NCBI GenBank assembly: GCA_938048455.1
Contig: CALIUY010000021.1
Span: 1 to 64,000 of the forward strand
DNA from: an uncultured Desulfobacterales bacterium
GTDB lineage: Bacteria > Desulfobacterota > Desulfobacteria > Desulfobacterales > SpSt-501
DNA: 64,000 nucleotides
Reading direction: 5' to 3'
The notes under the pieces were generated by a model. That model was given only the letters and a program-made list of their open reading frames with translations, was not told the origin of the DNA and searched no databases. The position numbers were made by a program, and so were the translations under genes. The number at the start of each line of letters is the position of its first letter. Within the stretch, counting starts at the first letter, position 1. Positions 14,172-50,818 of the stretch are shown piece after piece.

Positions 14172-17147
14172 TCAGATGCGGTGGAGCTCGAGCGGCTCGG
14201 CCAGCCGCCGGTTCGCCTGCGCGAGGCTCTCTTCGCTTCCGATCACGGCCACCGAGGCCCCCTTCAGCCCCTCGGGCAGCCAGCGTTCGGCCGCGGCCGC
14301 GACCGCACGGCGGTCGAGAGCGAGCAGCCGCGCCTTGAATTCGCGCCGCAGCTCGTCGGAGAGCCCGATCAGGCGGCGGGCGAAGGCCTTGCGGGCGGCG
14401 GGCCCCGGGGGGTCCGGTTTGTCGATGTCCGCGCAGACCTGGAGCAAGGCCTCGTGGATGTCGTTCTCCGTGACCTCCCCGCTCCGCAGGAAGGCCGGAG
14501 CGGCCTCGAAAACCGCGAGCGTCTCGACGATGTGCGGATCGCGGTAGGAGGCGAGGCTGAAGACGCCCTCCTCCGGGTTGTAGACGGCGAACCCGCCGTA
14601 AGCTCCGCCCTTCTCGCGGATCTCGCGGTGAAGAAAGAGCGCGCGCAGCAGTTTCGCGGTCACGGCAAGCGCGGGGGCGTCCTCGTGGGCGAAGCGCACG
14701 ACCGGAAGGGAGGCGGCGACGAAGTTCACGGCCGTCGCCGTGCTCCAGCCTTCGCGGATGCGCGGGCCGTGGGACTCCGGGCCGTCGAGGCGGAAACGGC
14801 GCTCCCCTTGCCCGGGCAATGCGGGCAAGAGCGCCGCGGCCTGCTCCTCCGCCGCCCGCACGGCCGCCTCTTCGCCGATCAGGGCGAGCTCCAGGTTCGG
14901 ACGCCGGAACAGGGCCTCGCCCAGGCGCGACAGCTTCGCCGCGAGAAGATCGAGGCGCTTCGCGTCGAGCGTCTCGGTCAGCCGCTTGACGGCGAGCAGC
15001 TGGTGGATCCCCCCCCAGGCTTCGCTCAAGGCCCGGGTGCGCGAGAAGTTGCGCTCGGCGAGCGAAATCGCCAGCCGGTGTCCCTGGTGCACGACCCCGG
15101 CTTCGAGCCCCGCGCGGTATTCGAGGAGAAGATTTCGCAGCCGGGTGCGGTCGCCGAAGTCGTATTCGGCGAGGAGCTCGGTCAAGAGCGCGAACATCGG
15201 CTCCAGGTTTCTCTCCAGGGCCTTCGCCGAGAGGGTCGCAAACGCCAGGGCTTCCCCTTCCCCGTCGAATGCGCTGTGCGGCGCCGCCGTCAGTCCCAGA
15301 CCGCCGGTCACGGCCTCGATCCAGCGCGCCATGGCCGCATAATCGCGGCGACGGGTCCCGATCCTCGTGAAGCTGTGGCAGAAGAAGGAAACGAGGGGGT
15401 GCAGCTCTTCGGGAATGCCGCCGCCGCCGGCGGCGGCCGCGAGGTAGAAAATCCCGGAGGTCGGCTGCTCGAAGCAGAGCAGCGGAAGCGTTTCGCCCCC
15501 CCGGCTCGGAGAGACGCCGGGAACCTCGGAGGGAATGTCCTCCCGCGCGAGCGTCGGAAGACAGGAGAGATCCTCGCGCGCCTCCTGCAGGCGGCGCAAG
15601 GCCTCGGCCTGCTCGCGCACGCGCCGCTCCTGCTGCGGGTCAAGACCGCGGCGGATCTCTTCGAGCAGCCGTTGCTCGCGCTCCTCCTCGCGTGCGGCGA
15701 GCTCCGGGTCGGGGTGCAGCGCGAAGCGCAGGCGGTGCGGGTTTGCGAGAAACCAGCGCTCGATCCGGCCCTCGAAGAAGCGGCCGTGCTCGACGCCGCG
15801 CCGGATCGCGGCCAAATCCTCCTCGAAACGAAGCACCCGCAGAGGGTCCCCGCCGTGGATCCAGGGGCCGGCGATCTCCAGCAGCAGTTTCAAACCGTAG
15901 GGGTAGGGGGTGTTGGTCACCTCGCGGCGGTGAAATTCCAACTGGTGGATCGCGGCCTCGATGCGCTCGGGCTCGATGCCGTCGGCGACAAGCCGCCCGA
16001 GCGTTTCGAGGACGATCCCTTCGACGGCCTCCTCGTCTGCGGCGCGCACCTCTTTCAGGCCGGCGGCGAACCGGGTGTCCCGCGGTTCGGGGTCGAAGCC
16101 GGAGCCGTCGGAAAGCGCCGCCCCCAGCCCGGAATCGATCAGCGCCTTGCGCAACGGGGCGGCGGCGGTTCCGAGAAGCATCTGGTCGAGCAGGACGAGC
16201 GCCAGCACCTCGGCCGTGTCGCGGACGTCGCAGGCGAGCCAGGCGACGCAGGCCTGGTGCTTTTGGGTCGGGTCCTCCCCCGGGGGGATCGGGTAGGCGG
16301 CCGCGGCCCTGCGCGGTGCATTCCAGCGCGGCTGGGGGGCGACCTCCGGGGCGGCAGCCGCCGCGGCGAAGCGCGTGAGCACCTGCCGTTCGACGAAGGC
16401 GAGATGATCCTCCAAGGGCAGGTCCCCGTAGCTGTAGAAAAAGGCGTTGCTCGGGTGGTAATGGCGGCGGTGGAACTCCCGCAGGCCCTCCCAGGTGAGC
16501 CGCGGGATCTCCTGCGGGTCCCCGCCCGAGTTGTGGGCGTAGGTCGTGTCCGGGCAAAGGGCCTGCTGCAGGCGGCGGACCATGACCTGGTCGGGCGAGG
16601 ACATCGCCCCCTTCATCTCGTTGTAGACGACCCCCCGGAAGACGAGCCGCTCGGAGCCCCCCGATCCGGGTTCGAACTCCAGACGGTGGCCCTCCTGGCG
16701 GAAGCTCAGCTCCTCCAGACGCGGGAAAAAGGCCGCATCGAGATAGACCGAAAGCAGGTTGGCGAAGTCCTTGCGGTTCTGGGTGGCGAAGGGATAGGAG
16801 GTCCAGTCGGAGCTCGTAAAGGCGTTCATGAAGGTGCTCAGGCTGCGCTTGAGCATGGCGAAGAAGGGGTCGCGGACGGGGTAGCGCTCCGAGCCGCAGA
16901 GAACGACGTGCTCGAGGATATGGGCGACCCCCGTCGAGTCGGCGGGCACGGTCCGGAAGGTGACGCCGAAAGCGTTCTCCCGGTCGTCCCGCTGGATGTG
17001 GATCCAGCGTGCGCCGGTCGGACCGTGGCGCAGCTCGTGGAACACGGCCCGGATCCAGGCAAGTTCCTCGACCCGTCGCACCTCCCAGCCCTGGATCGTG
17101 GCCCCGGGAAGAAAGGGCTGTTGCGCACCGCGCTCGATCGACGCCAT
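14172..17147 (-). CDS. M16C-family metalloprotease (PreP/Cym1-like)
   Basis: 991 residues, close to the ~1000 of presequence protease homologues. The inverted zinc motif is H76-I-L-E79-H80 (AHILEHVVLCGS), followed by YNEMKGAMSSP with the third metal ligand. Four M16-type domains joined by a long hinge are expected. A TTG lies 21 bases upstream, but the ATG at 17147 has GGAGG in front and was chosen. There is no signal peptide, so it is cytosolic. The role is degradation of peptides, perhaps cleaved signal or transit-type peptides. A second, unrelated-subfamily M16 protease with a signal peptide lies at 50745-53786. Confidence 0.92.
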   Translation of the reverse strand: MASIERGAQQPFLPGATIQGWEVRRVEELAWIRAVFHELRHGPTGARWIHIQRDDRENAFGVTFRTVPADSTGVAHILEHVVLCGSERYPVRDPFFAMLKRSLSTFMNAFTSSDWTSYPFATQNRKDFANLLSVYLDAAFFPRLEELSFRQEGHRLEFEPGSGGSERLVFRGVVYNEMKGAMSSPDQVMVRRLQQALCPDTTYAHNSGGDPQEIPRLTWEGLREFHRRHYHPSNAFFYSYGDLPLEDHLAFVERQVLTRFAAAAAAPEVAPQPRWNAPRRAAAAYPIPPGEDPTQKHQACVAWLACDVRDTAEVLALVLLDQMLLGTAAAPLRKALIDSGLGAALSDGSGFDPEPRDTRFAAGLKEVRAADEEAVEGIVLETLGRLVADGIEPERIEAAIHQLEFHRREVTNTPYPYGLKLLLEIAGPWIHGGDPLRVLRFEEDLAAIRRGVEHGRFFEGRIERWFLANPHRLRFALHPDPELAAREEEREQRLLEEIRRGLDPQQERRVREQAEALRRLQEAREDLSCLPTLAREDIPSEVPGVSPSRGGETLPLLCFEQPTSGIFYLAAAAGGGGIPEELHPLVSFFCHSFTRIGTRRRDYAAMARWIEAVTGGLGLTAAPHSAFDGEGEALAFATLSAKALERNLEPMFALLTELLAEYDFGDRTRLRNLLLEYRAGLEAGVVHQGHRLAISLAERNFSRTRALSEAWGGIHQLLAVKRLTETLDAKRLDLLAAKLSRLGEALFRRPNLELALIGEEAAVRAAEEQAAALLPALPGQGERRFRLDGPESHGPRIREGWSTATAVNFVAASLPVVRFAHEDAPALAVTAKLLRALFLHREIREKGGAYGGFAVYNPEEGVFSLASYRDPHIVETLAVFEAAPAFLRSGEVTENDIHEALLQVCADIDKPDPPGPAARKAFARRLIGLSDELRREFKARLLALDRRAVAAAAERWLPEGLKGASVAVIGSEESLAQANRRLAEPLELHRI

Positions 17148-18590: not shown

Positions 18591-19850
18591 TTACGGCAAC
18601 AGGCGCGCGATCGATACCGTCCGCTCGCCCAGCATGTGGACGTAGCTTCCCTTCTCGTTGTCGTACCAGCCGTAGATTACGGCCTGGGTGATGGGGATGC
18701 GCACCACGGGGCTCGGCAGTCCGGCGATCGCCTGCGCCGGAAACCCGGGCACCTTGGCGAGATCGAGGCGGGCCTCGGCCGTTCGGGTGTGCGTTTCGCT
18801 TCCCTCGATGATCGCCGCCGCGCGCGGCAGCCCGATGATGTCGGTCGAGACGTTTTGCTCTTCGCTGTAAAGGAGATAGCCCTCGGCGCTTTCCTCGGCG
18901 GTCCGGCGGTAGACCGCATTCACCGCCGCGCGGTCGATCCGCGCACCCCCCGGTTCCTCCTGGAAGTTGACGACGAGAAGGATCAGCGAGCCCGTGCTGG
19001 TCGGAATGCGCACGGACTCGGCGATGAAAGGGATCTCCTTCATCTGCGGGATGACCAAGCGCAGGGCGTTCGCCGCCCCGGTCGTGGTCAGGATGATGTT
19101 GTTGAGCACGCTGCGGTTCTTGCGCAGATCCCCTTTGCCCGCCTCGGGCGGGCGGTCGAGGACCGGCTGGGAACTCGTCGCCGCGTGCACCGTGGCCATG
19201 GAGGCCGAGAGAATGCGGCCGGCGCCGAAGGCGTCGATCAGCGGCTTCATCATGTGCGCCAGACACGTCGTCGTGCAGGAGGCGGCCGAGACGATCCGGT
19301 GGCGCCGCGGATCGTAATCGTTGCCGTTGACCCCCATCACGGTCGTGATCGCATCCGACGGAAACGGAGCGCTCTTGTCTTTGGCCTTGAAGGGCGCGGA
19401 GACGACCACCTTCTCGGCTCCGGCGGCGAGGTGCCCGCGCACGGAGCCCCGGGGGTCGGCCTCGTCGGCCGCGGGGTCGAGGAACTTTCCGGTCGTGTCC
19501 ACGACGAGGCGCACCCCGAGCCGCCCCCAGCCGATCTCCGCGGGATTGCGCTTCTCGCGCAGGATGCGGACCCTCACCCCGTCGACCCGCAGCGTGCCCG
19601 CGGCTTCGTCGAGATCGGAGATGACCGACGGCGCCCGGTGCCCGTGGAGGAAGGCGTGCAGCCGACCGTAGGTCGAGTCGCGCTCGATGTACTGGGCGAT
19701 GTCGGCCAGCGACCGCCCCGCCGGGCGGCCGAGGTTCACCACGATTTCGGGGAACGCCCGGCGCGCGACCTGGTCCCAGAGGGTCAACTTGCCGATACGC
19801 CCCAGTCCGTTGATCCCGAGCGGAAACGAAAAGGTGTCCGATGGCGTCAT
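18591..19850 (-). CDS. divergent glyceraldehyde-3-phosphate dehydrogenase-like protein
   Basis: 419 residues, about 80 more than ordinary GAPDH. The N-terminal Rossmann motif GINGLGRIGKL and the catalytic Cys192 (SCTTTC) and the His of TVHAAT are kept. The normally invariant Asn three residues after the Cys (SCTTN) is Thr195. The segment usually reading HAYTNDQ is HAATSSQ. GAPDH phosphorylates glyceraldehyde-3-phosphate oxidatively with NAD(P). The altered pocket raises the possibility of another phosphorylated aldehyde as substrate, but this is inference. It begins two bases after the stop of the giant dikinase-like gene, so the two are almost certainly co-translated. Confidence 0.85.
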   Translation of the reverse strand: MTPSDTFSFPLGINGLGRIGKLTLWDQVARRAFPEIVVNLGRPAGRSLADIAQYIERDSTYGRLHAFLHGHRAPSVISDLDEAAGTLRVDGVRVRILREKRNPAEIGWGRLGVRLVVDTTGKFLDPAADEADPRGSVRGHLAAGAEKVVVSAPFKAKDKSAPFPSDAITTVMGVNGNDYDPRRHRIVSAASCTTTCLAHMMKPLIDAFGAGRILSASMATVHAATSSQPVLDRPPEAGKGDLRKNRSVLNNIILTTTGAANALRLVIPQMKEIPFIAESVRIPTSTGSLILLVVNFQEEPGGARIDRAAVNAVYRRTAEESAEGYLLYSEEQNVSTDIIGLPRAAAIIEGSETHTRTAEARLDLAKVPGFPAQAIAGLPSPVVRIPITQAVIYGWYDNEKGSYVHMLGERTVSIARLLP

Positions 19851-19851
19851 C

Positions 19852-22800
19852 TCAGGCCTCCTTGACCGGCAAGAATCCGCGGTAGACCGATCCTTCCTGG
19901 CCGTCGATGCTCAGCGGGTCCCCGGAGCGGATCACGGCCGAAGGGAAACGGCAGCATTTTTCTCTCTCGTCGCAAACCAGTTCCTCGCAGCCGACGACAC
20001 AGGTCTTGCCGAGCCGATGGGCGACGATCGCCGCATGCGAGGTCAGCCCGCCCCGGGCCGTAAGCAGCCCGTCGGCGGCGTAAATTTCGCGGATATCGTC
20101 GGGGACGGTGTCGGTGCGCGCGAGGATGAGGCGGGTGGCGGGCTCGCGGCTGCGCCAGCTTTCGATCTCCTCCAGGCTGAAGACCAGCCGCCCGCTCAAG
20201 GCCCCGCCGCTGACGCCGATCCCGTGGCCGAGCAGAAGCTCCTGCGGAGGAGCCTCGAAAGCGAAGCGCAGCACCCGCGGGCTTTCGCGGATCGCCATGT
20301 CGCGCGTCTGAAGCATGTAGAGGTCCTCGGCCGCCGGGCCCTCGAAGGTGAACTCGATCTCCTGGGGGCTCCAGCCCTGCTCTTCGATCAGGATCTGGGC
20401 CCAGCGTTTGAGCTCGCGGAAGATCGCCGGGAAATGGGTTTCGAGCGTGATGTCGGTGTCGCGCATTTCGATCTCCTGCTGGAAGATCGAAACGGGCATC
20501 GTGCGCACCAATCCCGAAACGACGTCCTCCCCCTGGTTTGCGGTCGTAAAATCCCCCCACAGCCGAAGCACGTCCCCCGACCAGCGCGGGTTGTGGGTGA
20601 AGATGACCCCGGTGCCCGATTCCGGGGAACGGTTGCCGAAGACCATCGCCTGCACGGCGATCGCCGTGCCCCAGTCGTCGGAAATCCCCATGATGCGGCG
20701 GTAGGCGCGCGCCTTCGGGGATTCCCAGGAGTTGAGAACGCGCCGGACGGCGAGCAGCAGCTGCTCGAAGGGATCGTCGATCACCGCGACCCCGGCCTCC
20801 TCGATCAGCCGGCGGTAGGCGAGCGCCGCCTCGCGCATCTGGTCTCCGGAGAGCAGCCGCTTGAGCGGAACCCCCCAGCGTTTTTTGCAGGCGTCGATGA
20901 CCGCGTCGAAGGCGTCGCGCTCGAGGTCGTGCGCCATGCCGTAGCTCTGCAGAAACCGGCGGTAGCAGTCCCAGGCGAACCAGGCGTTCCCGGTCCGCTC
21001 CGCCAGCCCCCGCGTGACCGCCTCGTTGTTGCCCACGTTGAGCAGCGTGTCCATCATCCCCGGCTGGGAGATGGAGGCGCCGCTGCGCACCGAGAGCAAA
21101 AGCGGGCGCCGCGGGTCCCCGAAGCGCAGCGCCGTCTTCTCCTCGAGGCGTCGCAAATGCGCCAGCACCTGCTCGTGGAAATTGCGTCGCGCCGGCTCGT
21201 AAGACTCGATCACCTCGCGGCAGCGAAAAACCTCGGTGGTGATGATGAAGCCCGGCGGGACCCGGAATCCCAACCGCCGGAGGCGCACGAGGTTGAAGCC
21301 CTTGGTGCCGAGATGGATCACGCCGGCTACGGAGGAGGGCGGCTCGTCGATCGCCACCACGCCGTGCCGCGGATCGTAGAGCAGCAGCTGGTGGACGCGG
21401 TCGCGCGGCAACATCTCGGACTGGCGGTAGAGCGTCTGCAGGATGCGGGCGAGGAAGCGGTCCAGGGGTTGGAGGCCGGGGGTCTCGGCGATGCGGTCGC
21501 GGAAGAAGATCTCGGTGATGCGGTGCCGCAGCCGTTCGAGGTCCTCCACCGGTTCCCGCGGCAGGTATTTCGGCAGCACCCGGTCGACGACCTGGGGCAG
21601 AATGCGATTCAGGTTCGCCCCGTGCAGGTTGTTGAAGTAGTCCTTGACGATGTTCTGCACGGCGAGCGTGAAGCCTTTGAAGATGTCGAGATACTGGGTC
21701 AGGGTGAACCCCCGGACGGCGAGGGAGTCGGCAAGGAACTCGAGCTGACGCTCGAACTCCACGGAGCGGATCCCGTCCAGGCGCAACGCCCGATCGAAGA
21801 GGCGCAGCACCTCGAGGATCTCCCCGAAGGTGGCCTTGGTGATCAGGCCGAGATCGATCTCCTCGACCAGGTCCTCGAAGAGCACCTGGACCCGCGCCTC
21901 GAGGCGCAGAGCGAGCCCCAGGCAGTCGAATTTCATCTCGTGGTAGCTGCCGTACATCGAGGGGATGTCGATCGTGATGTGCCGCTTCTGGTAGATGTCC
22001 TCGCGGACCGGAAAGCGCTCGCCGGAGAGAACGACCGCCTTCAACCGCTCGGCGGCCGCCAGCAGCCCCTCGAGCCTCCGGAAGCGGTCGGGCTCGGAGA
22101 GGGCCTCTTCGAGGCGATCGATTCCGGGGATCCCCTCGGTGCGCAGCGAGGCGAGGTAGACCTCCAGATCGACGATGTCGCGGTGGTATTTCTGGTGCAG
22201 CAGGCGGTAGAATTCGACGACCAGAGCAAAACGCCGCCGGTCGAGCTCGGAGACCCCGGGGACGAAGCCGAGCAGCGCCTCCAGCTCCGCGGGAGATCGC
22301 GTCAGGAGATCGTCCGGGATGCGCACCCCTTTTTTCGCCAGCCGCTGGACCAGCCGGTGCAGGCCCTTGACGTAAGGCCCCTGCGAGTCGATCTGCCGGT
22401 GGATCGAAGGCGGGACGAACGCGGCGAGCTCCTCGCGGTCGAGATCCTTCCAGAAGCGGAACACGGCCTCCACGAAGGCGATGATGCGGCTGGAACTCTC
22501 GACATGGCTCTGCTTGCGCAGGAAATGCACGAGCGGGTCGCGACGCTGGAGGAGCTCGTCGACCTGGGTGGAGACGTCGCGCAAGCGGCCCTCGGCGCCG
22601 ATGTCGTTGAAGAACACCGGCAGCAGCCGCACGAGCTGCTTGACCAAGTGGTAGACGGGCTCGATCGGGCTGTCGAGCAGCGCGGTCACGTCCCGCGGAA
22701 AGAGATCGACGTCGCGGATGAAAACGCCTTCGAGCGCCAGATGGATCACCAGCGCCGAGAGCAGCCGCGTGGAGCGCTTCGGGTTGCGCTTGATCAGCTC

Positions 22801-24042
22801 GAGCCAGGTGCGGATGTTCTGCAGGTGGGCGCCGTTCGCCTGGATGCGCCACTCCTCGTCCACGCCCTGCACCGCGGGCGGTTGAAAGCCGAAGTCGATC
22901 AGGGCGTCGATGAAGAAGTTGAGCAGATCGGCGTCCTCGGTGCGGTAGACCCCCAGGCCCATGTTGAGCAGGCAGTCGAGCGCCGTCCCCGGAAAAGCCC
23001 CGCCGCGGGCCTTGAGGATGGAGATCGTCTTTCGCAGGAGCTGCTGGATGTTGCGGTAGTGATCGTTCACGATGATCCAGGTCACGGCCTGGTTGATCTC
23101 GCGGAGCATTTCCTCGTGGAGCACCGCCAGCCCCGAGAGGTTCATGATCTGAAAGAGGCAGATCAGCTCGAGGTGCCGGCCGCGGGAGGGGTCGGCTTCG
23201 GCTTCGCGCAAACGCCGGGGGATGCGGCGGTAGGTTTCGACGAAATGGGCGAAGGCCGGGAGCGCCAGCAGCCGGCGCGCGGCCGCGGAGGTGTCCAGCC
23301 CGGGGCCGGCGGCGATCTCCTCGAGGGTCTCCCGCCAAGCGGCGATCCGGCGGTGGGAGATCTCCTCGAAAAAGGCCTCGACCGGGCCGCTGCCGCCGAA
23401 CTCCGCCGCCTCCCGGCGGAAGACCTCCGCCGGGTCGGGCTCCTGCGCCCAGATCTCGTAGGTCCGCCGCAGGCAGCGGAGGAGAAGCCGATTGACCGCC
23501 TCCCAGTCCCGCTCCTCCTCCACGGCCTGCTCGGTCATCAGCGCGGCAAGACGCGGCAGGCTGTAATAGCTTTTCACCAAAAGATCGAAGGGCGCCTCGG
23601 GCAGCGCGAGCATCCGCTCGCAGAAGGAGAGCAGCAGGCTTCGAAACGGCGGGCTTTTCCGGCCCGCCTCGCGCACGAGCGTCTGCAGATAGCGCAACAG
23701 GTCGTCGGCGGCGGCCGCCCGGACTTCGGGCGATTTCGCCTCGGCCATGGCCTGCAGGAACACCCCGCCCAACATCCCGGCCGCCTCCACCCCCCGCGGG
23801 TGGGAGCGCAGCAGCCGGACGTAGTCGAGGGCGTAACGGCGCGCCTCGGCGAGCACGACTTTCCAATTCCGGTAGGGGTGGGAGAGCTCCCGCAGGAAGC
23901 CGTTTACGGACTCGACCAGACCGTAGTAGGCGCTCATCACCTCGCACAGCACTTCGTAGCGGGGATCGACGACGACCTCCACCCGGGATTCGGCGAGGTT
24001 GGCCTCGAGGGCCTGAGATCGGATTCGGGGGACGGAGTCCAT
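19852..24042 (-). CDS. giant PPDK-like protein lacking the PEP-binding domain
   Basis: 1396 residues from ATG 24042. Earlier starts at 24108 (ATG) and 24132 (TTG) are open, and none has a strong ribosome site. Residues about 910-1210 form a PPDK/PEP-synthase-type ATP-grasp region: GTKGFNLVRL, VPPGFIITTE, then SVRSGA...QPGMMDT near 981. A phosphohistidine swivel domain follows with GGLTSHAA, His at 1336. The spacing between these motifs matches PPDK. Only ~60 residues follow the His, so the PEP/pyruvate TIM barrel is missing. The first ~900 residues are helix-rich and not recognisable. It could autophosphorylate on His from ATP and pass phosphate to an unknown acceptor. Co-translated with the GAPDH-like gene. 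Confidence 0.85.
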   Translation of the reverse strand: MDSVPRIRSQALEANLAESRVEVVVDPRYEVLCEVMSAYYGLVESVNGFLRELSHPYRNWKVVLAEARRYALDYVRLLRSHPRGVEAAGMLGGVFLQAMAEAKSPEVRAAAADDLLRYLQTLVREAGRKSPPFRSLLLSFCERMLALPEAPFDLLVKSYYSLPRLAALMTEQAVEEERDWEAVNRLLLRCLRRTYEIWAQEPDPAEVFRREAAEFGGSGPVEAFFEEISHRRIAAWRETLEEIAAGPGLDTSAAARRLLALPAFAHFVETYRRIPRRLREAEADPSRGRHLELICLFQIMNLSGLAVLHEEMLREINQAVTWIIVNDHYRNIQQLLRKTISILKARGGAFPGTALDCLLNMGLGVYRTEDADLLNFFIDALIDFGFQPPAVQGVDEEWRIQANGAHLQNIRTWLELIKRNPKRSTRLLSALVIHLALEGVFIRDVDLFPRDVTALLDSPIEPVYHLVKQLVRLLPVFFNDIGAEGRLRDVSTQVDELLQRRDPLVHFLRKQSHVESSSRIIAFVEAVFRFWKDLDREELAAFVPPSIHRQIDSQGPYVKGLHRLVQRLAKKGVRIPDDLLTRSPAELEALLGFVPGVSELDRRRFALVVEFYRLLHQKYHRDIVDLEVYLASLRTEGIPGIDRLEEALSEPDRFRRLEGLLAAAERLKAVVLSGERFPVREDIYQKRHITIDIPSMYGSYHEMKFDCLGLALRLEARVQVLFEDLVEEIDLGLITKATFGEILEVLRLFDRALRLDGIRSVEFERQLEFLADSLAVRGFTLTQYLDIFKGFTLAVQNIVKDYFNNLHGANLNRILPQVVDRVLPKYLPREPVEDLERLRHRITEIFFRDRIAETPGLQPLDRFLARILQTLYRQSEMLPRDRVHQLLLYDPRHGVVAIDEPPSSVAGVIHLGTKGFNLVRLRRLGFRVPPGFIITTEVFRCREVIESYEPARRNFHEQVLAHLRRLEEKTALRFGDPRRPLLLSVRSGASISQPGMMDTLLNVGNNEAVTRGLAERTGNAWFAWDCYRRFLQSYGMAHDLERDAFDAVIDACKKRWGVPLKRLLSGDQMREAALAYRRLIEEAGVAVIDDPFEQLLLAVRRVLNSWESPKARAYRRIMGISDDWGTAIAVQAMVFGNRSPESGTGVIFTHNPRWSGDVLRLWGDFTTANQGEDVVSGLVRTMPVSIFQQEIEMRDTDITLETHFPAIFRELKRWAQILIEEQGWSPQEIEFTFEGPAAEDLYMLQTRDMAIRESPRVLRFAFEAPPQELLLGHGIGVSGGALSGRLVFSLEEIESWRSREPATRLILARTDTVPDDIREIYAADGLLTARGGLTSHAAIVAHRLGKTCVVGCEELVCDEREKCCRFPSAVIRSGDPLSIDGQEGSVYRGFLPVKEA

Positions 24043-24167
24043 TGAGGATCGACCCGGCGCGGAATGCGGGCCGCAAACCGATCGGCTCGCCTCTTCCGGC
24101 CTCGCCATCAGGGGACGGCTGCAGTCTACCAACGGCGCGGGGCGCTGGCAAGTCGCCGGAAACGAAA

Positions 24168-24201
24168 CCGGGCCCCTCCCGGCGAATCGGGAGGGGCCCG
24201 G
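24168..24201 (-). terminator. Rho-independent terminator of the acs operon
   Basis: A 13-bp perfect GC-rich stem (24168-24180 with 24189-24201) and an 8-base loop lie just after the acsE stop. On the minus strand it is followed by the T-rich run TTTCGTTT. Good intrinsic terminator. Confidence 0.8.
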
Positions 24202-24232
24202 CTGGGGGCATCGGGGGCTCGCCGCGGGGGCT

Positions 24233-25123
24233 TCAGACCTCCAACCAGGAGTCGGAGTAGAGCGTTTTCCCGAGGATGACGTTCACCGTTTTGACGTAGT
24301 GCTGCATCTCCTGGGGCAGGGAAGCGAGCTCCGGGGTTTCGCCGTCCATCACGCGGTAAATCAGATCCACGATGTCCGGGCGCCGCCCCTTGGCGATCGC
24401 GATCAGCTGGTCGTCCAGAGGATCGGCGATCACGGAGTACATCCCGTATTTCTGCAGCATGACCATGTACGTCTGATTCAGGATCGGCCGCAGGTGACCG
24501 GGCGGGCCGTTCGAGATGTTGGAGAGTCCGCAGGTGCTTTTCGCGCCGGGAGCGATGTCGGGAAGCATGGCCTGGAAGTTCATCAGGCTGACCGCCTGGG
24601 GCTGCTGGATGTTCACCGGGGTCACGATCCCGTCGACCCAGATCTTCTCGTTGGGGATGCCCGCCTCGTTGGCATGGTAGAGCAGATCGACGCAGAGGGC
24701 GGCGCGCTCGTTCTCGTCGCGGGGCAGCCCGTCCGGCCCCCACATGAGGGCGATGAAATCGGCGCCGGTGTCCCGGGCGATGGGGATCATCCGCTGGTAG
24801 CGCTCGGGGCGGGCCATGATCGAGTTGATCAGAGGCGGCTGGGGGGTCGGTTTGTAGACCTTGAGCGCGGCCTCGATCGCCTCGATGTTCGAGGTATCGA
24901 GCGCCAGGGGAATTTCGGGGACGACCTCCTGCACGGTCTTCACCACCCAGGGCATCAGCTCATGGCCTTCCTTTTTCGCCGGCCCCAGGTTGATGTCGAT
25001 GTAATCCATGCCCTTCGACTGCTGGAGCAGGGCCTCCTCCTGGATCGGCTTGGGGTCGCGTTCCTTGAAGGCCCGGCCGATTTTCTTGGAGATGACGTTC
25101 AGGCTCTCACCGATCAGTATCAT
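24233..25123 (-). CDS. acsE: methyltetrahydrofolate:corrinoid/iron-sulfur protein methyltransferase
   Basis: 296 residues, somewhat longer than the ~262 of acetogen AcsE. ATG is preceded by GGAGG at ideal distance. A pterin-binding TIM barrel: it starts MILIGESLNVISKK, with blocks GMDYIDINLGP, PLALDTSNIEAI, and STCGLSNISNG (the loop that binds the pterin). It moves the methyl group from methyl-H4folate to the cobalt of the corrinoid protein AcsCD. Last gene of the operon, followed by a terminator. Confidence 0.93.
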   Translation of the reverse strand: MILIGESLNVISKKIGRAFKERDPKPIQEEALLQQSKGMDYIDINLGPAKKEGHELMPWVVKTVQEVVPEIPLALDTSNIEAIEAALKVYKPTPQPPLINSIMARPERYQRMIPIARDTGADFIALMWGPDGLPRDENERAALCVDLLYHANEAGIPNEKIWVDGIVTPVNIQQPQAVSLMNFQAMLPDIAPGAKSTCGLSNISNGPPGHLRPILNQTYMVMLQKYGMYSVIADPLDDQLIAIAKGRRPDIVDLIYRVMDGETPELASLPQEMQHYVKTVNVILGKTLYSDSWLEV

Positions 25124-25184
25124 GCGATCCTCCCTCTCGCAGGAAGTCGGCGGGCGACGGCCTCGAAGGGCCGGCTCCCCCGTT

Positions 25185-26525
25185 TCAACGCGCCTTCAGA
25201 AAGGCCGGGATGTGCGCGGCCTCCCGGGGCCCGACGGTGACCTTCCAGCCGGGCAGCTCCTCCTCCATGTCGCCGGCGATGGCCGCGGCGTAGCCGGGGA
25301 TGATGACCTCGCGGGTTTTCGTCTTTTCCTCGATGCCGCTTTTCTTCACGAACTGGCCGACGTCGTCGCCGGAGAACTTGCCCGCGGCCCAGGCGGTCAT
25401 GACCGAAAGCCCTTCGGAGTCCTTGATCAGAAGGTAGGAGGGCACCCGGCTCGATTCGATTTCGCCGGAGACGATGAAGTAGGTGAGGGCGAAGTTCGTG
25501 GTCACGAGCACCGGCGAATTCTCGTTCGGGTTGTTGATCTCGTAGATCCCCTGGGTGACGGTCATCGGCCGCTGCGGGTCGGTGAAGATGTTGAGCCGCT
25601 CGAGAAGCAGCGGAAAGAGGCTCTCGCCGGCGAAATCGGAGAGCACCACGATCCCGCCGTATTTCGCCACGAAGGTCGCGGCGAGCATCGTCTCGACGTC
25701 GAGGTTGGAGGCCATCTCGCAGGGAAAGACGATCGTCGGGAAGCCGAGCGCGCGGTTGCCGTCTTTGAGCGCCGCCCGGCGGATGGCGACCATGTCCTCG
25801 TGCGCCTGCTTGAGCTCGCGGCTGCCCGGATCGAGAACCAGGTCCTTCAACCCCATCGCCGTGAGTTTCTGCGTGAGCGCCACGAGATCGGGCACGGAGG
25901 GAGCCTTGACGGCGAGCGGAAGGCCGCTTTCCTTGGCGAGCGCGCCCATGGCGTCGAGGTTCGCGGCGGTCGCGGCGTAAAGGAGCGGCCGCTTGAAGCC
26001 GGCGGCGGCCACCCCGGCCTTCATCACGGCGGGATCCTCGGTCAGGAGGATCAGGTTGAACTCCGAGGTCTCGGCCACGGTCTTCGCCGTGCGCGCGAAG
26101 GGCTCGGCGCCCTTTCCCGTATCCTGCACGGCCACGAGCTCGGGGCGCAGGTTGAGCCCCACCCGCTCGTACTGGAAGGCGTTCCAGGTTTTCAGGCGCC
26201 GGCCGAGCTCGCCGGGGTCGAGGTCGGCCGGCACCCGGGCCGCAAGCAGGGTCGGGTTATAGAAGGTCTTCTCGTGCCGGTACTGCACGGTCTCGCCGCC
26301 GGCCGTCGCCTGACGCACGCCTTTGCCGATCCCGACCGGCCGGATCGGCGGGGCGGCGGCCTCGGAGAGTGCGGCCCGCGCCTCCTCGGAGACATAGGGG
26401 CAGCTGTCGAGCTCGGCCTTGCCCGAGGCGAGGTTCATCGCGAACGCGAGGCAAGTCGGAACGCCGCATTCCTTGCAGTTGGTCTTGGGAAGCAGCTTGA
26501 AGATCTGGATTCCGGTGAGGGCCAT
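25185..26525 (-). CDS. acsC: corrinoid/iron-sulfur protein large subunit
   Basis: 446 residues. The N-terminal [4Fe-4S] motif has Cys17, Cys20, Cys25 and Cys42 (TNCKECGVPTCLAFA...SCPY). A TIM barrel follows, and a C-terminal cobalamin-binding domain reads up to VTVGPREAAHIPAFLK. It carries the methyl group on cobalt between AcsE and acetyl-CoA synthase. It is the large partner of the upstream acsD product. Lies between acsB and acsE on the same strand with short gaps. Confidence 0.95.
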   Translation of the reverse strand: MALTGIQIFKLLPKTNCKECGVPTCLAFAMNLASGKAELDSCPYVSEEARAALSEAAAPPIRPVGIGKGVRQATAGGETVQYRHEKTFYNPTLLAARVPADLDPGELGRRLKTWNAFQYERVGLNLRPELVAVQDTGKGAEPFARTAKTVAETSEFNLILLTEDPAVMKAGVAAAGFKRPLLYAATAANLDAMGALAKESGLPLAVKAPSVPDLVALTQKLTAMGLKDLVLDPGSRELKQAHEDMVAIRRAALKDGNRALGFPTIVFPCEMASNLDVETMLAATFVAKYGGIVVLSDFAGESLFPLLLERLNIFTDPQRPMTVTQGIYEINNPNENSPVLVTTNFALTYFIVSGEIESSRVPSYLLIKDSEGLSVMTAWAAGKFSGDDVGQFVKKSGIEEKTKTREVIIPGYAAAIAGDMEEELPGWKVTVGPREAAHIPAFLKAR

Positions 26526-26610
26526 GTCGTTCTCCTTCCCGTCATGCGGTGCGCCCGGCCGGGGCCCCGGCGGACGTTCGGCGCCGAGGCCCCGGGTCCG
26601 AAGCCCGGGT

Positions 26611-28827
26611 TCATCCGCCGATCAGCGGCTCCATCGAAAGCGCGGGGTGCTTCTTCTCCTGGAGGAAGGGGAGAATCTCCTCTTCCGTCGTACCCACGGT
26701 CTCGTCGGCGATCCGGTCGATCAGGTCGGGGATCCCGATTTCCTCCCCCCGCTTGAGCAGCCGCTCGCGCAGCTCCTCCTTGAGCATCTTGGGCATCCAC
26801 ACGAGCCGCTTGATCCCGCCGTCGCCGGCGATGAACTTGCGCTGGGTGATGTTGTACTTGGAATGGCCGACGAATCCCGGCGAGGACTGCCCCCCGCCCA
26901 TGACCCCGGCCAGGGTCGTGAACTTCATGCCGCAGGGGGTGTCCCCGGTGTACTCGCGGTTCACGGTCATGATGCCGTTGCAGGAAGGGAGCATCGCCGC
27001 GATGCATTCGCAGCAGCCGCAGGTCGTCATCGGGCTGTGCACGAGGGAGTAGAAGTTGTAGTGCGAAACCGCCCCGCGCGAGGCTTTCTGGACGAACTCG
27101 TTCACCCCCTTCCACTGCCCGAGCTTGGGGTCGAGGCACTCGCCCTTGACGATGGGCTGGTTGGGGCCGGTGGGGTTGATCTCGTAGGAGGCCTTGCAGT
27201 CCATCCAGTTGTAGGCGCCGCACAACCCGGTGCGCTCCGGGCTCACGGTGCAGACGTGGCTCGGGGCGAAGGACTGGCAGAGGGTGCAGGAGTAGTAGAT
27301 CTCGACGTCCTCGTCGGTCATCTTCTCCACGCGGTCGTCGCGCTGCTTGTATTCGGCCCGCGCCCGCTGCGTCAGCTTGTCCACGTCTTCCTTCTTGGTG
27401 AAGAGCGTGACCTGCACTTTATCCACGATCTTGGTGAAGTCCTGATGGAACTTGGCGTGGAGCACGACGCCCAGGTGCTTGAGGGAGAAGCCTTTCTGGA
27501 CGGCCGCCTTGCTCACCCGGATCCAGGCGATGTCGCGCTGGCCGATGTGCATCACCCCCTGAATGTAGTTGATCAGGTGGTGGATCTGGCGCTCGAGGAT
27601 CGGCTCGAAGTCGGTCTGGAACTCCCGGCCGGCGATCTGGACGAAGATCCCGAGCGGCATCGCGCCGCCCTCCTTCACCTGGTCGATGTCCGGCCCGACG
27701 AGGACCACCTTGCCGTCCTCGATCTCGTTCATCTCGGCCATTTTGACGAGCTCGGTGCACTGGGTCTTGCCGCCGCCCATCTGGCAGTAGAGGTCCTGGC
27801 CGCGCACACGCTCGCCCTCGTAGGCCGGGCCGAAGGAAAGCGGGATGTCGATCTGGGTCACGGTCACCTTGAGGCCGCGCACCTCGATCGATTTCTGGAC
27901 GATCTCCGAATGGGGGACGTTCGAGACGACGTGCTCGTAAGTGCAGATGCCCGTCGGCAGAACCTGGGGAATGTCGGTGTCGGCGATCGTGGGAAAGCCC
28001 CAGTTGATGGCCCCGGCGGCGGCCGCGGCCCAGTCGGTGCCCACTTCGCCCAGCGCGTTCACGAAGGCGAAAATGCGGTTCTTGTTGTAGAGGAGCATGC
28101 GGCGGTAGTCGCCCGGCTGAACCCCGCCGAAGGCCATGGCCGCCCGGTTGGCGAAGCCGAGGGCGAAGATCGCCGAGGAGATGTCGGGTCCGAAGGGGAC
28201 GATCCGCGTGTTCCAGCCGATCTGGACCCCGGCCTGCAAGAGCTGCTGGGCGACGGTCGTGTGGTTGTGATTGGCGGCGAGAAAGACGTAGAGACCGCGG
28301 CGCTGATATTCCTCGACGATCAGCTTGGCCGTCTCGGGGTCCGGGGCGGCGCCGACGATGGCCGCGAATCCCGGAGCGGAGCCGTCGACGAACTCGACGC
28401 CGCGCTTGCGGAAAACCGTGTCGTCGGCCGCGCCCAGCCAGATCTTGCCCGCCTCCTCGTCGATCTCCTCGGAGTGCAGATAGAAATCGGGCTCGTTCAG
28501 GTAGCGCAGGGCCTCGCGGATCTCGAAGCAGAAGAGCGCCGCCATGCCGGCGTCCAGAAGCGGCCCGAGGTAGGGCAGGTGGTTCATGCCCTTGATGTGC
28601 GGCGGCAGCAGTTTGCGGGCGACCTCCAGCACCTGTTTCATGTCCTCGAGTTTTTCGACTTTGATGCCGAGCAGCGAATAGATCACGGGCAGGTAGTAGG
28701 CGGTGTTGGGAAATCCTACGGGAGTGTCGGCCTGGAAGGTTTCGAGGGCTTTTTTGTATTCGCCCTCGACTTGGGAGACGATGTTGTAGGCACCTTGGAT
28801 CGCGGCAAATGCTACCAGTTTCGACAT
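26611..28827 (-). CDS. acsB: acetyl-CoA synthase catalytic subunit
   Basis: 738 residues, the full bacterial length including the N-terminal CODH-binding domain that archaeal CdhC lacks. It assembles acetyl-CoA from CO, a methyl group and CoA at the Ni-Ni-[4Fe-4S] A-cluster. The cluster cysteines read C-x2-C-x8-C-x9-C (CTLCQSFAPSHVC...LCGAYNW). The nickel-binding loop is Cys603-Gly-Cys605, here followed by a further Cys606 (TCGCCEC). No carbon monoxide dehydrogenase subunit gene (acsA) is in the window, so CO must come from a subunit encoded elsewhere. Confidence 0.97.
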   Translation of the reverse strand: MSKLVAFAAIQGAYNIVSQVEGEYKKALETFQADTPVGFPNTAYYLPVIYSLLGIKVEKLEDMKQVLEVARKLLPPHIKGMNHLPYLGPLLDAGMAALFCFEIREALRYLNEPDFYLHSEEIDEEAGKIWLGAADDTVFRKRGVEFVDGSAPGFAAIVGAAPDPETAKLIVEEYQRRGLYVFLAANHNHTTVAQQLLQAGVQIGWNTRIVPFGPDISSAIFALGFANRAAMAFGGVQPGDYRRMLLYNKNRIFAFVNALGEVGTDWAAAAAGAINWGFPTIADTDIPQVLPTGICTYEHVVSNVPHSEIVQKSIEVRGLKVTVTQIDIPLSFGPAYEGERVRGQDLYCQMGGGKTQCTELVKMAEMNEIEDGKVVLVGPDIDQVKEGGAMPLGIFVQIAGREFQTDFEPILERQIHHLINYIQGVMHIGQRDIAWIRVSKAAVQKGFSLKHLGVVLHAKFHQDFTKIVDKVQVTLFTKKEDVDKLTQRARAEYKQRDDRVEKMTDEDVEIYYSCTLCQSFAPSHVCTVSPERTGLCGAYNWMDCKASYEINPTGPNQPIVKGECLDPKLGQWKGVNEFVQKASRGAVSHYNFYSLVHSPMTTCGCCECIAAMLPSCNGIMTVNREYTGDTPCGMKFTTLAGVMGGGQSSPGFVGHSKYNITQRKFIAGDGGIKRLVWMPKMLKEELRERLLKRGEEIGIPDLIDRIADETVGTTEEEILPFLQEKKHPALSMEPLIGG

Positions 28828-28900
28828 GCAGGGTTCCTCCTTCGTTGAGGATGATGGAAGATCCGGGTTCGTCCCGCGCGTTCCTCCCGGTCGCGGCCGC

Positions 28901-30517
28901 CTACCGGTTGCGGCGGTGGATCCAGGAGAGGTTCTCGATCAGCCGCTCGACCACCGTCTGCGGCTCGACCGCGGGGGCCTTCGGGCCCCGGGCCGGGGAT
29001 TCGGGCCGCGGTTTCTCCTGGGGTGCGGCCGACGGCGCGGCGGCGTGTTGGGCGGCGCGGGCTTCGCGCTCTTTCGCCCGTTGCTGGCGGATGCGCTCGA
29101 GTTCGCCTTCGAGTTTCGCCTTCGCCTCGGCTTCGGCCTGAGCTTTGGCCTCGGCCTCCGCCTTCGCGCGGGCCTCGGCTTCCGCCTTCGCTTTGGCTTC
29201 CGCTTCCGCCTTCGCGCGGGCTTCGGCCTCGGCTTTGGCCTTCGCCTCGGCCTCGGCTTTGGCCTTCGCCTCGGCTTCCTCGCGGGCACGGCGCACAGCC
29301 TCGTCCTCCGCCGGCGCGGCCTTCGGCCCCTCGGGGACGGCCGCGGGCTTCGGGGCGGCGGCAGCGGGCTTGGCCTCCGCGGCGGGTGCCGCCGCAGGCT
29401 TCGGGGGCGGCGCCGGGGCGGCCTTGGCCTCGGCGGCCGGCTTTTTCTCCTTCTCTTCGGGAATCGTCAAATCGGGGGCCGGGGCGAGCGCGGCGAGATC
29501 CACGGCAACCGCCGGCAGGCGCTTGGCGATCGGGGCGATCTGACGGGCATCCCCGCCGCTCAAGATCAGGCCGATGTAGCTCTTCACCAGCCGCACCGAC
29601 TCGGGGTGGCGCAGGATGAGGATGTCGGAGCCCGCCATCAGGTAAGCCACGGCGGCCGTCGTCTCCATGAGCACCGCCCGACGCTCCGGATCGCCCAGAG
29701 TCGGGGCGTCCGCGGCGCCGAGCTTGGCCTCCTTGCTCTTCCAGACCTCGTTGCCGATGTTGTTCACGATCGGCAGCTGGAGCTTGTCGTCGCCCTGGGC
29801 GAGGGCGGCCATGCGGAGGCGTTCCATGACGGAGTACGTGTACTCCAGGCCGTAGCCCAACCCGCCGGTCGTGGGGTCGATCAGCATCCGCTGCGGCGGG
29901 ACCCCCAGGTTTTCGAGGAGGATGTTGATCTGCTTGGCGAGATTGACGTCGATCGGCGAGGAGGCGATGACGAAGTGCCCGAAGCCCATGGCCGCCGCCC
30001 CGATCGCCTTGTGGTTCTTGTCCTCGACCGGCCCGAGGATGAGATTCATCCCCTGGCAGGCCTCGGCGATCTTTTTGAGGACGGCCTCATCCTTTTCCAC
30101 GTTGGCGCAGCCCCAGACGATCAGCGGCACCTCGACCGCCGCACGCACCTTCCGGACGGTTGCCACCGCCTCCTCCGCGGAGGCGTTGCGGCCGTTCGGA
30201 TCGATGCTTTTCAGCTGCAACGCGATCAGCTCCGCTCCGTATTCCGCGACGCACTTTTTCGCCCAGGCCGCCGGGTCGGCAAGGACGCCCCGAAAGGGGG
30301 CGATCGCCGCCTCGGGCCAGTCCTCCGGTTCCATGTCCCAGACCTCCATCGCCACGCGCGGAGGGTGGGGCATTTTCCCCTCGAACTGGTAAAAGGGGTA
30401 ACAGCTCTCGCCGCCGACGGTAACGGCCTTCGGGCCGTCTCCCAGCGTGATCTCCCTGATCCTGCCGCTGTAGGATTCCTTGAAGAATTGCCAGCCCAAC
30501 GTTCCCTCCTTTGGCAT
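28901..30517 (-). CDS. acsD: corrinoid/iron-sulfur protein small subunit with long charged C-terminal extension
   Basis: 538 residues. Residues 1-~335 are the AcsD TIM-barrel core (FFKESYSGRIREITLGDG, LIDPTTGGLGYGLEY). This is followed by an Ala/Pro/Lys linker (~340-400), then ~90 residues of Ala/Glu/Lys/Arg repeats predicted to form one long helix or coiled coil. A conserved-looking tail ends VVERLIENLSWIHRR. Acetogen AcsD is about 310-320 residues, so some 200 residues are extra. The tail may tether the corrinoid protein to acetyl-CoA synthase or another partner; that is inference. Followed by acsB after 73 bases. Confidence 0.95.
   Translation of the reverse strand: MPKEGTLGWQFFKESYSGRIREITLGDGPKAVTVGGESCYPFYQFEGKMPHPPRVAMEVWDMEPEDWPEAAIAPFRGVLADPAAWAKKCVAEYGAELIALQLKSIDPNGRNASAEEAVATVRKVRAAVEVPLIVWGCANVEKDEAVLKKIAEACQGMNLILGPVEDKNHKAIGAAAMGFGHFVIASSPIDVNLAKQINILLENLGVPPQRMLIDPTTGGLGYGLEYTYSVMERLRMAALAQGDDKLQLPIVNNIGNEVWKSKEAKLGAADAPTLGDPERRAVLMETTAAVAYLMAGSDILILRHPESVRLVKSYIGLILSGGDARQIAPIAKRLPAVAVDLAALAPAPDLTIPEEKEKKPAAEAKAAPAPPPKPAAAPAAEAKPAAAAPKPAAVPEGPKAAPAEDEAVRRAREEAEAKAKAEAEAKAKAEAEARAKAEAEAKAKAEAEARAKAEAEAKAQAEAEAKAKLEGELERIRQQRAKEREARAAQHAAAPSAAPQEKPRPESPARGPKAPAVEPQTVVERLIENLSWIHRRNR
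29096..29285 (-). repeat. acsD: Ala/Lys/Glu codon repeats in acsD
   Basis: Imperfect tandem repeats (units reading AEAKAKAEAEARAK or close variants) encode a highly charged helix. On the plus strand they show as repeated CTTCGCC/CTCGGC/TTTGGC blocks. The number of copies may vary between strains by slippage. Confidence 0.85.
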
Positions 30518-30656
30518 GTGAACCGGTTCGCTTGACGGACCTCGCCCCTTCGTGGGTTCACCGGTCGATGGGAACCGCCCTCGGTGAATTCAACTTTTCT
30601 TCTTCAGGATCCCCGGAATGAAAAACGACCGCAAAATCGGCGTGTAAGGATCACCC

Positions 30657-30684
30657 TTTAGAAGATGGAGGGTCCCTTTGTCAA
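30657..30684 (-). promoter_or_regulatory. putative internal promoter before acsD
   Basis: On the minus strand TTGACA (30679-30684, overlapping the end of the activator gene), 16 bases, TCTAAA (30657-30662). It lies at the head of the 163-base gap before acsD, the largest gap in the operon. It could raise expression of acsDBCE over the activator. Confidence 0.45.
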
Positions 30685-49142: not shown

Positions 49143-50818
49143 CCGGAACCCGGAAAAGGAGCCGGCCCTTCGCGCTCCTGCGCACCGTCCTCGCCTTCGG
49201 CTTTCTGAACGCGCTGCTTTCGCTTTCGTTTCCCGCCGAATCCTGGACGCCGGCCGCGTGGCTGCGCCTGTCCCCCGATGCCCTGATTCTGACGGCGATC
49301 CTCGCCGTTTCCCACCGTCTCGGGGCGCGCGGCCGCCGCCTGCGCCTCGGGGCGCTGGCGGCCCTGGTGCTGGGGCTGCGGCTGTTTCAGAGCGCCGAGG
49401 CGGCGATCCCGCTTTTTTTCCACCGCGCCTTCCATCTTGCCATGGACCTTCCCCGGCTCGCCGACTTCTTCCGCCTCCTCACGCTCACCCGGACCCCGAC
49501 CGAGACGGCCGGTCTCGCCCTCGCGGCGGCCGGAGCGGGGATCGGAATCGCTCTCGTTCTCTACCGGGCGCTCGCGACGCTCGAGGCCGGATCGGCAGGA
49601 CGGGGGCGGCGGCCGGGCTCAGGGGCCGCGAGGATCGTTCTCGGGGGAAGCCTCGCCGCCGCGCTCTTCGCCGCCGCGGATCCAGGCCTCATCGCCCCGG
49701 CCGCGGCTCCTCGGCTGGCGGCGGAGATCGTCCGATGGCTGCGGATGGATGCGATCCGCTCCGAGTGGAACGAGCGCTTTGTCGAAGCGGCGGCGCGCGC
49801 GGCGGCGCTGCGTCCCGATTTCTCGGGACTCGGGCGGGAAAGCGTGTTCGTGGTCTTTGTCGAATCCTACGGGGCGAACGCTCTGTTCGACCCGCGGATC
49901 GCCGGCGAAGGGGTCCCCGCGCTCAAGCGCCTCGAAGCCGATCTCGCGGCGGCGGGATTCGGCCTCGCCAGCACCCTGCGCCGTTCGCCGACCGCGGGCG
50001 GCGGTTCCTGGTTGGCGCACGCCACGCTCGCCTCGGGCGTGCGCATCGACAACCAGCTCGCCCACGACCTGCTGCTCGCCTCGCCGCTTGTCCCGCTGGC
50101 GGCTTACTTTCGGGAAGCGGGCTACCGCACGCTTCGCGCCGCCCCCGGCACCCGCTGGCCCGCGGCCGAGGCGGCTTTTTATCGTTTCGAGCAGACGCGG
50201 ATCGCCTCCGGGTTCGGTTACCGCGGCCCCGGCTTCGGGTTTTCCCCCGTGCCGGATCAGTTCGTGCTGGAGTGGATCGGCCGTTACACGGCGGGCGGAG
50301 GACCGTTCTTCGTGGAGGTGATCCTGACCGGAAGCCACACCCCCTTCGATCGCCGGGCCCCGTATCTCGAAGACTGGGAGGCGCTCGGCGACGGATCCGT
50401 CTACTACGGAGGAGCGGCGCAGGAGGCGCAAGGGGGGATCTTCGGCGCCCGCGGAGCCCATGAGGCCTACCGCACCCTGCTGCTCGATTCGCTTGCGGCC
50501 GTGGCCGGCTTCGCCCGCCGCCACCTGCGGGGAGAGGAGCTTCTGATCGTCCTGGGGGACCACGCTCCCCCCATCGAGATCCCCTCCGCGGTGGAGGCCT
50601 TCGCCGTCCCGGTTCACCTCGTGACGCGCAACCCCGCCGCGCTCGCGGAGTTCCTCCGCCGGGGTTTCCGGCCGGGAATCCTCCCCGAGCCTCACTCCGC
50701 GCCGCCGGGTCTCGAGACCCTTTTTTGGGATCTGATCGCGGGCTTCAACGCCAGTCGATCTCCCGAAAGGGAAGTTGCAGGCGATCGGCAAGCGAGCGCA
50801 GCTCCTCCTCCAGGGTGA
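49139..50818 (+). CDS. membrane-anchored sulfatase/phosphatase-fold protein (LtaS-like)
   Basis: 559 residues. About four to five N-terminal membrane helices (to ~180) are followed by an extracytoplasmic alkaline-phosphatase-superfamily domain. The domain has VFVVFVESYGANAL (metal ligand Glu), RSPTAGGGSWLAHATLASGV (likely nucleophile region), GSHTPF and LGDHAPP (metal Asp/His). Relatives move phosphoglycerol or phosphoethanolamine groups onto glycolipids or cleave phosphates/sulfates. Last of the overlapping cluster. Its final 74 bases overlap the end of the convergent M16 gene. Confidence 0.82.
   Translation: MTGTRKRSRPFALLRTVLAFGFLNALLSLSFPAESWTPAAWLRLSPDALILTAILAVSHRLGARGRRLRLGALAALVLGLRLFQSAEAAIPLFFHRAFHLAMDLPRLADFFRLLTLTRTPTETAGLALAAAGAGIGIALVLYRALATLEAGSAGRGRRPGSGAARIVLGGSLAAALFAAADPGLIAPAAAPRLAAEIVRWLRMDAIRSEWNERFVEAAARAAALRPDFSGLGRESVFVVFVESYGANALFDPRIAGEGVPALKRLEADLAAAGFGLASTLRRSPTAGGGSWLAHATLASGVRIDNQLAHDLLLASPLVPLAAYFREAGYRTLRAAPGTRWPAAEAAFYRFEQTRIASGFGYRGPGFGFSPVPDQFVLEWIGRYTAGGGPFFVEVILTGSHTPFDRRAPYLEDWEALGDGSVYYGGAAQEAQGGIFGARGAHEAYRTLLLDSLAAVAGFARRHLRGEELLIVLGDHAPPIEIPSAVEAFAVPVHLVTRNPAALAEFLRRGFRPGILPEPHSAPPGLETLFWDLIAGFNASRSPEREVAGDRQASAAPPPG

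Follow-up and report, generated by a model that had tools for sequence, protein, structure and literature searches.

Pyruvate, phosphate dikinase (PPDK; TIGR01828, PDB 1kbl/1dik) carries an ATP-grasp region, a phosphohistidine domain directly after it and a C-terminal barrel for phosphoenolpyruvate (PEP) and pyruvate. PEP synthase (TIGR01418) performs a reaction of the same type, in which ATP is converted to AMP through a phosphohistidine. Rifampin phosphotransferase (RPH) and other single-chain dikinases combine a PPDK-like ATP-grasp and swivel domain with a different acceptor domain, and the two-component enzymes PpsAB (phenol), CreHI and HpeHI apply dikinase chemistry to acceptors other than pyruvate, as described in excerpts from PMC12167813.

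The gene considered here lies in a 64,000-nucleotide stretch of DNA from an uncultured Desulfobacterales bacterium (contig CALIUY010000021.1, positions 1 to 64,000). That whole stretch is called the window, and coordinates refer to it unless another locus or contig is named. The gene (19852..24042, minus strand; ATG at 24042, stop at 19852-19854) encodes a protein of 1396 aa, called the dikinase below. Judged by its sequence, it joins a large N-terminal region to the two parts of a PPDK-type dikinase that carry the ATP-grasp and the phosphohistidine, in which the catalytic residues are retained. Its partner across genomes is GapX, a divergent glyceraldehyde-3-phosphate dehydrogenase (GAPDH). 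The partnership is well supported by genome comparison and suggests that central carbon metabolism includes a so far undescribed transfer of phosphate. That the dikinase serves a non-pyruvate acceptor and works with GapX is probable. The acceptor preferred here is the carboxylate of 3-phosphoglycerate (3PG), which would give 1,3-bisphosphoglycerate (1,3-BPG) for GapX; this reading is tentative, with a rough probability of 0.35.

The dikinase and its domains

The only useful Pfam matches in the dikinase were to PPDK_N (residues 953-1250, E 1.5e-29) and PEP-utilizers (residues 1306-1384, E 3.9e-18). The ATP-grasp (PPDK_N) region, supported by Pfam, NCBIfam and PDB matches, spans residues 911-1250 (20293..21312, minus strand), and the phosphohistidine swivel domain (PEP-utilizers; residues 1306-1384, 19891..20127, minus strand), which contains H1336, follows directly. 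A first-pass annotation, made from the window sequence alone, had reported these motifs with PPDK spacing, and the searches agree; the gene, its coordinates and the number of the histidine (within GGLTSHAAIV, in 1396 codons) were also correct. The top NCBIfam model was TIGR01828, with 396.5 bits from residue 911 against a curated cut-off of 843.45 bits. When aligned with PPDK from the PDB, residues 911-1396, the last 486 of the protein, corresponded to PPDK residues 18 to 514-515 of approximately 874. Since the alignment ends at that point, the barrel half is absent from the dikinase, and the Pfam search gave no match in the protein to the barrel family PEP-utilizers_C (PF02896), as the same annotation had proposed.

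A barrel encoded by a split neighbouring gene was looked for in the window genome and not found. The neighbouring genes carry no barrel, and the sole PF02896 match in that genome is enzyme I of the phosphotransferase system (PTS), on another contig; a barrel supplied by an adjacent gene is therefore ruled out. The same genome (contigs C16, C60, C7 and C18; loci L065 and L067-L070) encodes five further proteins that resemble dikinases, 723-927 aa long, in which Pfam finds PPDK_N and PEP-utilizers but no barrel.

The catalytic residues of PPDK, K22, R92, E323, Q335, R337 and H455, have counterparts, assigned by eye, in K914, R986, E1230, Q1245, R1247 and H1336 of the dikinase. At these six positions 66 or 67 of 68 relatives show no change and the remainder have only gaps, and the H1336 column is His in all 66 relatives that cover it. 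The counterpart of D321 of PPDK is E1228, with Glu in 65 of 66 relatives. A degenerate PPDK relic, devoid of phosphotransfer and kept as a structural partner of GapX, would fit the missing barrel and the almost universal Glu at this position, but with the other catalytic residues examined unchanged in 66-67 of the 68 relatives such an explanation is very improbable.

A genome scan recovered 27 relatives in Desulfobacterota-type records, of which 25 were near full length (about 1300 residues or more covered, 50-89% identity) and two were fragments; chance is thereby excluded. A profile of residues 1-895 matched 115 of 395 sampled genomes of the phylum, and outside the phylum the dikinase was found in two of 140 sampled genomes, drawn around the genome of locus L028 (G395). 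Domain order was unchanged across the 68 loci studied; in four of them (L014, L024, L027, L086) the protein is short, being a fragment or cut off where the contig ends, and the set is partly non-independent (L020 and L103 very probably represent a single contig, and one genome contributed both of the fragments L024 and L027). In a tree of the catalytic half (35 rows), the 19 dikinases formed one clade (support 100/98), sister to 11 PPDKs, all from the same phylum (93/91), and five PEP synthases branched outside both. It follows from this sister position that the dikinase is neither a PEP synthase nor a recently broken PPDK of the phylum. It is an old and widespread family, not a one-off.

With respect to the gene itself, an in-frame TTG at 24132 is an alternative start that would add 30 codons; the closest relative (L001) has an ATG at the position equivalent to the window ATG. 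Two other open frames overlap the gene, one of 1452 aa antisense to nearly all of it (19687-24045, plus strand) and one on the same strand (19847-24211, minus); these are high-GC artefacts, able to mislead searches. In one genome (G065) two overlapping frames make up the dikinase (L201, 4933-6888 and 6716-9100), which may represent a frameshift, an assembly error or a real split gene.

The N-terminal region (residues 1-895; 21358..24042, minus strand) is all-helical, has no assigned family and is the presumed acceptor domain. Residues 1-900 of the dikinase had no match in Pfam, NCBIfam or PDB sequences, known substrate domains included, and for residues 1-895 no Pfam family rose beyond chance in any of 26 members (best E 0.004), nor did a profile of them find anything among PDB sequences at E 10. 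The first-pass annotation had recognised nothing in these first two thirds and proposed structure prediction with a fold search. The AlphaFold model of residues 1-895 is nearly all helix, with a mean predicted local distance difference test score (pLDDT) of 83.2. Foldseek and VIA returned karyopherins, CAND1, huntingtin and designed repeats, all weakly: the Foldseek TM-scores were around 0.15 (about 0.1-0.2 in the top rows), other alignments were short or loose, and the best VIA match had a Z of 9.3 over 98 residues at 2.9 A. These matches weakly suggest a helical, solenoid-like region and nothing more specific, and the lack of a better match is no proof of a new fold.

Two segments of this region stand out by conservation in the 68 loci, and both contain many Arg, Lys, His and Glu residues that do not vary. 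Motif 1 (residues 480-517; 22492..22605, minus strand) has nearly invariant E484, R488, D495, E496, R500, D502, R509, K510 and H513; in motif 2 (residues 683-709; 21916..21996, minus strand), K686, R687, H688, E702 and K704 are identical in all 68. In the model each motif includes a loop of low confidence, with pLDDT below 50 at residues 480-482 and 684-697. A second model, in which the catalytic half was included, had a mean pLDDT of 69, with motif 2 still below 50, and was too poor to show how the motifs pack. Invariant basic motifs of this kind would suit an anionic acceptor. They bear also on a different idea, namely that the phosphohistidine serves as donor to a protein, GapX or a PTS-like regulator, with the N-terminal solenoid as a scaffold that switches GapX on. 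The solenoid-like model would be in keeping with this, as would genes that we take from their sequences to be rpoN, ptsN, rapZ and a PTS EIIA-like gene, situated upstream in 9 to 11 of the 68 loci. PTS-like genes are absent near most loci, however, and the motifs look more like an active site than like an extended surface for protein binding, so that a protein acceptor appears improbable.

Pairing with GapX and the proposed reaction

The gapX gene (18591..19850, minus strand; 419 aa) starts one base past the dikinase stop codon. Its product matches TIGR01534 and GAPDH entries in the PDB; the TIGR01534 score of 314.1 bits is under the curated cut-off of 367.2. GapX retains the catalytic Cys and His, the substrate-site residues TTGAA and RxP, and WYDNE, and members of its family are about 400-476 aa long, with several insertions. 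At the coenzyme site the Asp that marks NAD use is lost (NxGR replaces ND), and the S-loop has LDR; together these are hints that GapX may use NADP(H).

It is apparent from the genome comparisons that the two genes occur together. Among the 395 genomes of the phylum, 114 had both, one had the dikinase only, two had GapX only and 278 had neither. The GapX search was bimodal (GapX at least 331 bits, canonical GAPDH at most 159 bits), and one positive genome (G066) gave extra pieces at 407 and 197 bits. The exact test of the pairing overstates the association, as the 395 genomes are related species. In six families that hold both states (f12, f20, f21, f44, f59 and f63), as read by eye from the dikinase and GapX genome tables, the genes go together, G113 excepted. 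All three exceptions to the pairing are in genomes 62-79% complete: in the dikinase-only genome (G113, of f20) the contig stops just past the dikinase, and both GapX-only genomes (G005 and G078) belong to one genus (g19). In G005 the contig stops inside GapX. In a set of 26 chosen genomes, GapX was present in 18/18 with the dikinase and 0/8 without it.

With regard to position, GapX immediately follows the dikinase on the same strand, within 405 bases, in 49 of the 68 loci, and adjoins the dikinase on the opposite strand in six; the 13 loci with no GapX in the stretch include some at contig ends and others with GapX elsewhere in the genome. The pairing holds where the genes are unlinked (e.g. 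G014, G195 and G210). In the two dikinase genomes from outside the phylum GapX likewise follows the dikinase immediately, and the ten compared genomes without a dikinase gave canonical-type GAPDH matches (at most 138 bits) or none.

Several genomes indicate the metabolic step. In three (G195, G240 and G261) the dikinase is elsewhere and GapX lies beside genes for phosphoglycerate kinase and triosephosphate isomerase (pgk-tpi). In another three, from one genus and with a completeness of 100 (G028, G065 and G227), GapX is the sole GAPDH match, and the dikinase and phosphoglycerate kinase (PGK) are kept. Two sister genomes (G100 and G345) have a canonical GAPDH from which the TTGAA site is gone, and in a further member of the genus (G180) the canonical GAPDH is intact. 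This genus (with loci L087 and L200-L204) thus presents a stepwise loss of canonical GAPDH, with dikinase and GapX always retained. GapX can probably carry the GAPDH step, and its substrate-site residues and pgk-tpi context suggest that it acts between glyceraldehyde 3-phosphate (GAP) and 1,3-BPG.

GapX is almost never found without the dikinase despite the near-universal presence of PGK, which is most simply explained if the dikinase produces or consumes a compound that is substrate or product of GapX. We propose that the pyruvate barrel of the PPDK lineage was replaced by the large N-terminal helical acceptor domain, or that this protein never had a barrel. ATP would phosphorylate H1336, and the swivel domain would carry the phosphoryl group to an acceptor bound in the N-terminal domain, in or close to the two invariant motifs rich in Arg, Lys and His. 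This acceptor would belong to the reaction of the obligate partner GapX: 3PG and ATP, with phosphate (Pi), would be interconverted with 1,3-BPG, AMP and pyrophosphate (PPi), and GapX would then reduce the acyl phosphate to GAP in sugar synthesis from C1, C2 or C3 carbon, or the reverse. The use of Pi and PPi is suggested by the PPDK lineage. A reaction of this kind with 3PG and 1,3-BPG would lie near equilibrium, and it would run in bacteria whose activation of sulfate yields much AMP and PPi. In its full form, as a reversible phosphoglycerate dikinase (ATP + Pi + 3PG <-> AMP + PPi + 1,3-BPG) passing the acyl phosphate to a dedicated GAPDH, the proposal is possible but somewhat doubtful; the acceptor, phosphate rather than water, the direction and the use of NADP(H) by GapX are the parts that we infer.

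Several observations weigh against 3PG as the acceptor. PGK is present in 377 of the 395 genomes, that of the window included, so the proposed reaction would duplicate it, and all 18 dikinase genomes checked also have a second, canonical-type GAPDH (that of G100 looks damaged). One genome, 62% complete (G078), has GapX, not at a contig end, and no dikinase was found in it. Finally, a dikinase accepting pyruvate would also suit a sugar-synthesis operon. A simple replacement of PGK was considered and ruled out, given the PGK count above; among the 115 dikinase genomes only two (G175 and G199, fragmented or incomplete assemblies of one genus) show no PGK. One genome (G101) has GapX and pgk each in two copies with identical scores (C1:505497-506711 and 1778716-1779930).

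Pyruvate is a serious rival, in that the N-terminal domain might hold a new pyruvate site and make PEP for the sugar-synthesis route of GapX. Excerpts from PMC8780430 describe Dissulfurimicrobium hydrothermale as predicted from its genome to fix CO2, with the pathway serving gluconeogenesis, and count as one of its PEP synthases LGS26_08520, which is flanked by the GAPDH genes 08515 and 08525; by position rather than sequence, this is very probably a dikinase of the present family. PPDK is moreover the sister clade, and the window genome and G210 have no PEP-binding barrel besides PTS enzyme I, while G014 has none. On the other hand, 15 of the 18 dikinase genomes tested carry another barrel protein of PEP synthase/PPDK size (809-1131 aa frames), the barrel with the pyruvate site is gone from the dikinase, and a PEP-forming enzyme would leave the near-perfect tie to a single GAPDH paralogue unaccounted for. 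Pyruvate is accordingly judged unlikely.

The same partnership data would fit an acceptor that is another triose-level compound (glycerate, glyceraldehyde, dihydroxyacetone or a related acid), with GapX consuming or releasing it in phosphorylated form, and dikinases elsewhere have adopted very different acceptors, as excerpts from PMC12167813 and PMC4844700 describe. This too is rather unlikely: GapX retains a normal GAP/1,3-BPG site and is the sole GAPDH match in some genomes, which argues for a normal triose phosphate, and for most such acceptors a plain kinase would suffice.

The surrounding locus

Directly upstream of the dikinase is a Wood-Ljungdahl cluster (24233-32660, minus strand), comprising an AcsE-like methyltransferase gene as immediate neighbour (24233..25123), acsC (25185-26525), acsB (26611-28827), acsD (28901-30517) and acsV (30681-32660), all on the minus strand. 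Between acsE and the dikinase is a strong stem-loop of 16 pairs (24166..24203, minus strand), terminator-like with no good T run. A 66-base stretch containing it folds at -40.9 kcal/mol (z -4.33, none of 200 shuffles as good); a scan for terminator patterns gave three terminator-like sites in 6.1 kb versus 3.4 expected.

Across the 68 loci, an acsE-type CO2-fixation gene is upstream of the dikinase in 22, pgk is near it in 12 and tpi in 13; pgk follows the dikinase in 11 of those 12 loci and is upstream in the other (L091). Such neighbours are in keeping with a role in sugar synthesis. Strong AcsB matches were obtained in 35 of 41 dikinase genomes versus 15 of 39 without the dikinase, with weak matches in G083, G030 and G032 scored as absent, so that a strict tie of the dikinase to CO2 fixation was rejected in favour of an enrichment. 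In five loci (L093, L082, L104, L107 and L074) a glycogen-synthase-like gene, named by eye, is upstream of the dikinase. A defence system was also considered, and PADLOC gave no match. Elsewhere in the window are two M16-family metallopeptidase genes on the minus strand, one PreP-like (14172-17144) and one at 50745-53864.

Significance and comparison with known systems

Approximately three in ten sampled genomes of the phylum carry this large, conserved enzyme, which probably belongs to central metabolism and which at least one genome paper seems to have entered as a PEP synthase. Because it is so strictly tied to a single GAPDH paralogue, what was a vague 'unknown dikinase' becomes a two-enzyme module that can be tested on a short list of candidate substrates. 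Should 3PG be the acceptor, a textbook step would gain an unrecognised, AMP/PPi-coupled alternative that runs parallel to PGK, and models of flux and energy in sulfate reducers and autotrophic anaerobes would have to change; should it be pyruvate, a new pyruvate site has arisen. Searches of open-licence PMC papers gave no description of the dikinase family or of a phosphoglycerate dikinase, and none of the acceptor domain, domain order, partner or metabolic place. The first-pass suggestion of a new type of phosphotransfer enzyme holds in part: the loss of the barrel and the unmatched N-terminus favour it, but a class of non-pyruvate dikinases is already known, from excerpts of PMC4844700 and PMC12167813.

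GapX shares with type I GAPDH (TIGR01534) the catalytic Cys and His, TTGAA, RxP and WYDNE, and differs in its length of about 400-476 aa with insertions, in the lost coenzyme Asp and in scoring under the curated cut-off. Glucan water dikinases have the swivel His domain before the ATP-grasp and carry starch-binding modules, whereas the His domain of the dikinase is C-terminal and its residues 1-895 have no Pfam match beyond chance. In PpsAB and HpeHI, the ATP-grasp and swivel are on separate chains, in contrast to the single chain of the dikinase, which differs from these systems and from CreHI also in a grasp that is PPDK-like rather than PEP-synthase-like and in its central-carbon gene context. 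According to excerpts of PMC4844700, the acceptor domain of RPH lies between the ATP-grasp and the C-terminal His domain, whereas in the dikinase the unassigned domain precedes the ATP-grasp, and its score to the RPH model is 34.5 bits (cut-off 999). It scores 65.8 bits to the PEP synthase model TIGR01418 (cut-off 739.75) and 77.9 bits to the best such model, NF005057, as opposed to 396.5 for PPDK, and has no barrel. PPDK, the sister clade, has the same order of these two domains, the same spacing and the same catalytic residues; the dikinase falls outside that clade, and is set apart from PPDK by the missing C-terminal barrel, approximately 900 extra N-terminal residues, Glu in place of D321 and its pairing with GapX.

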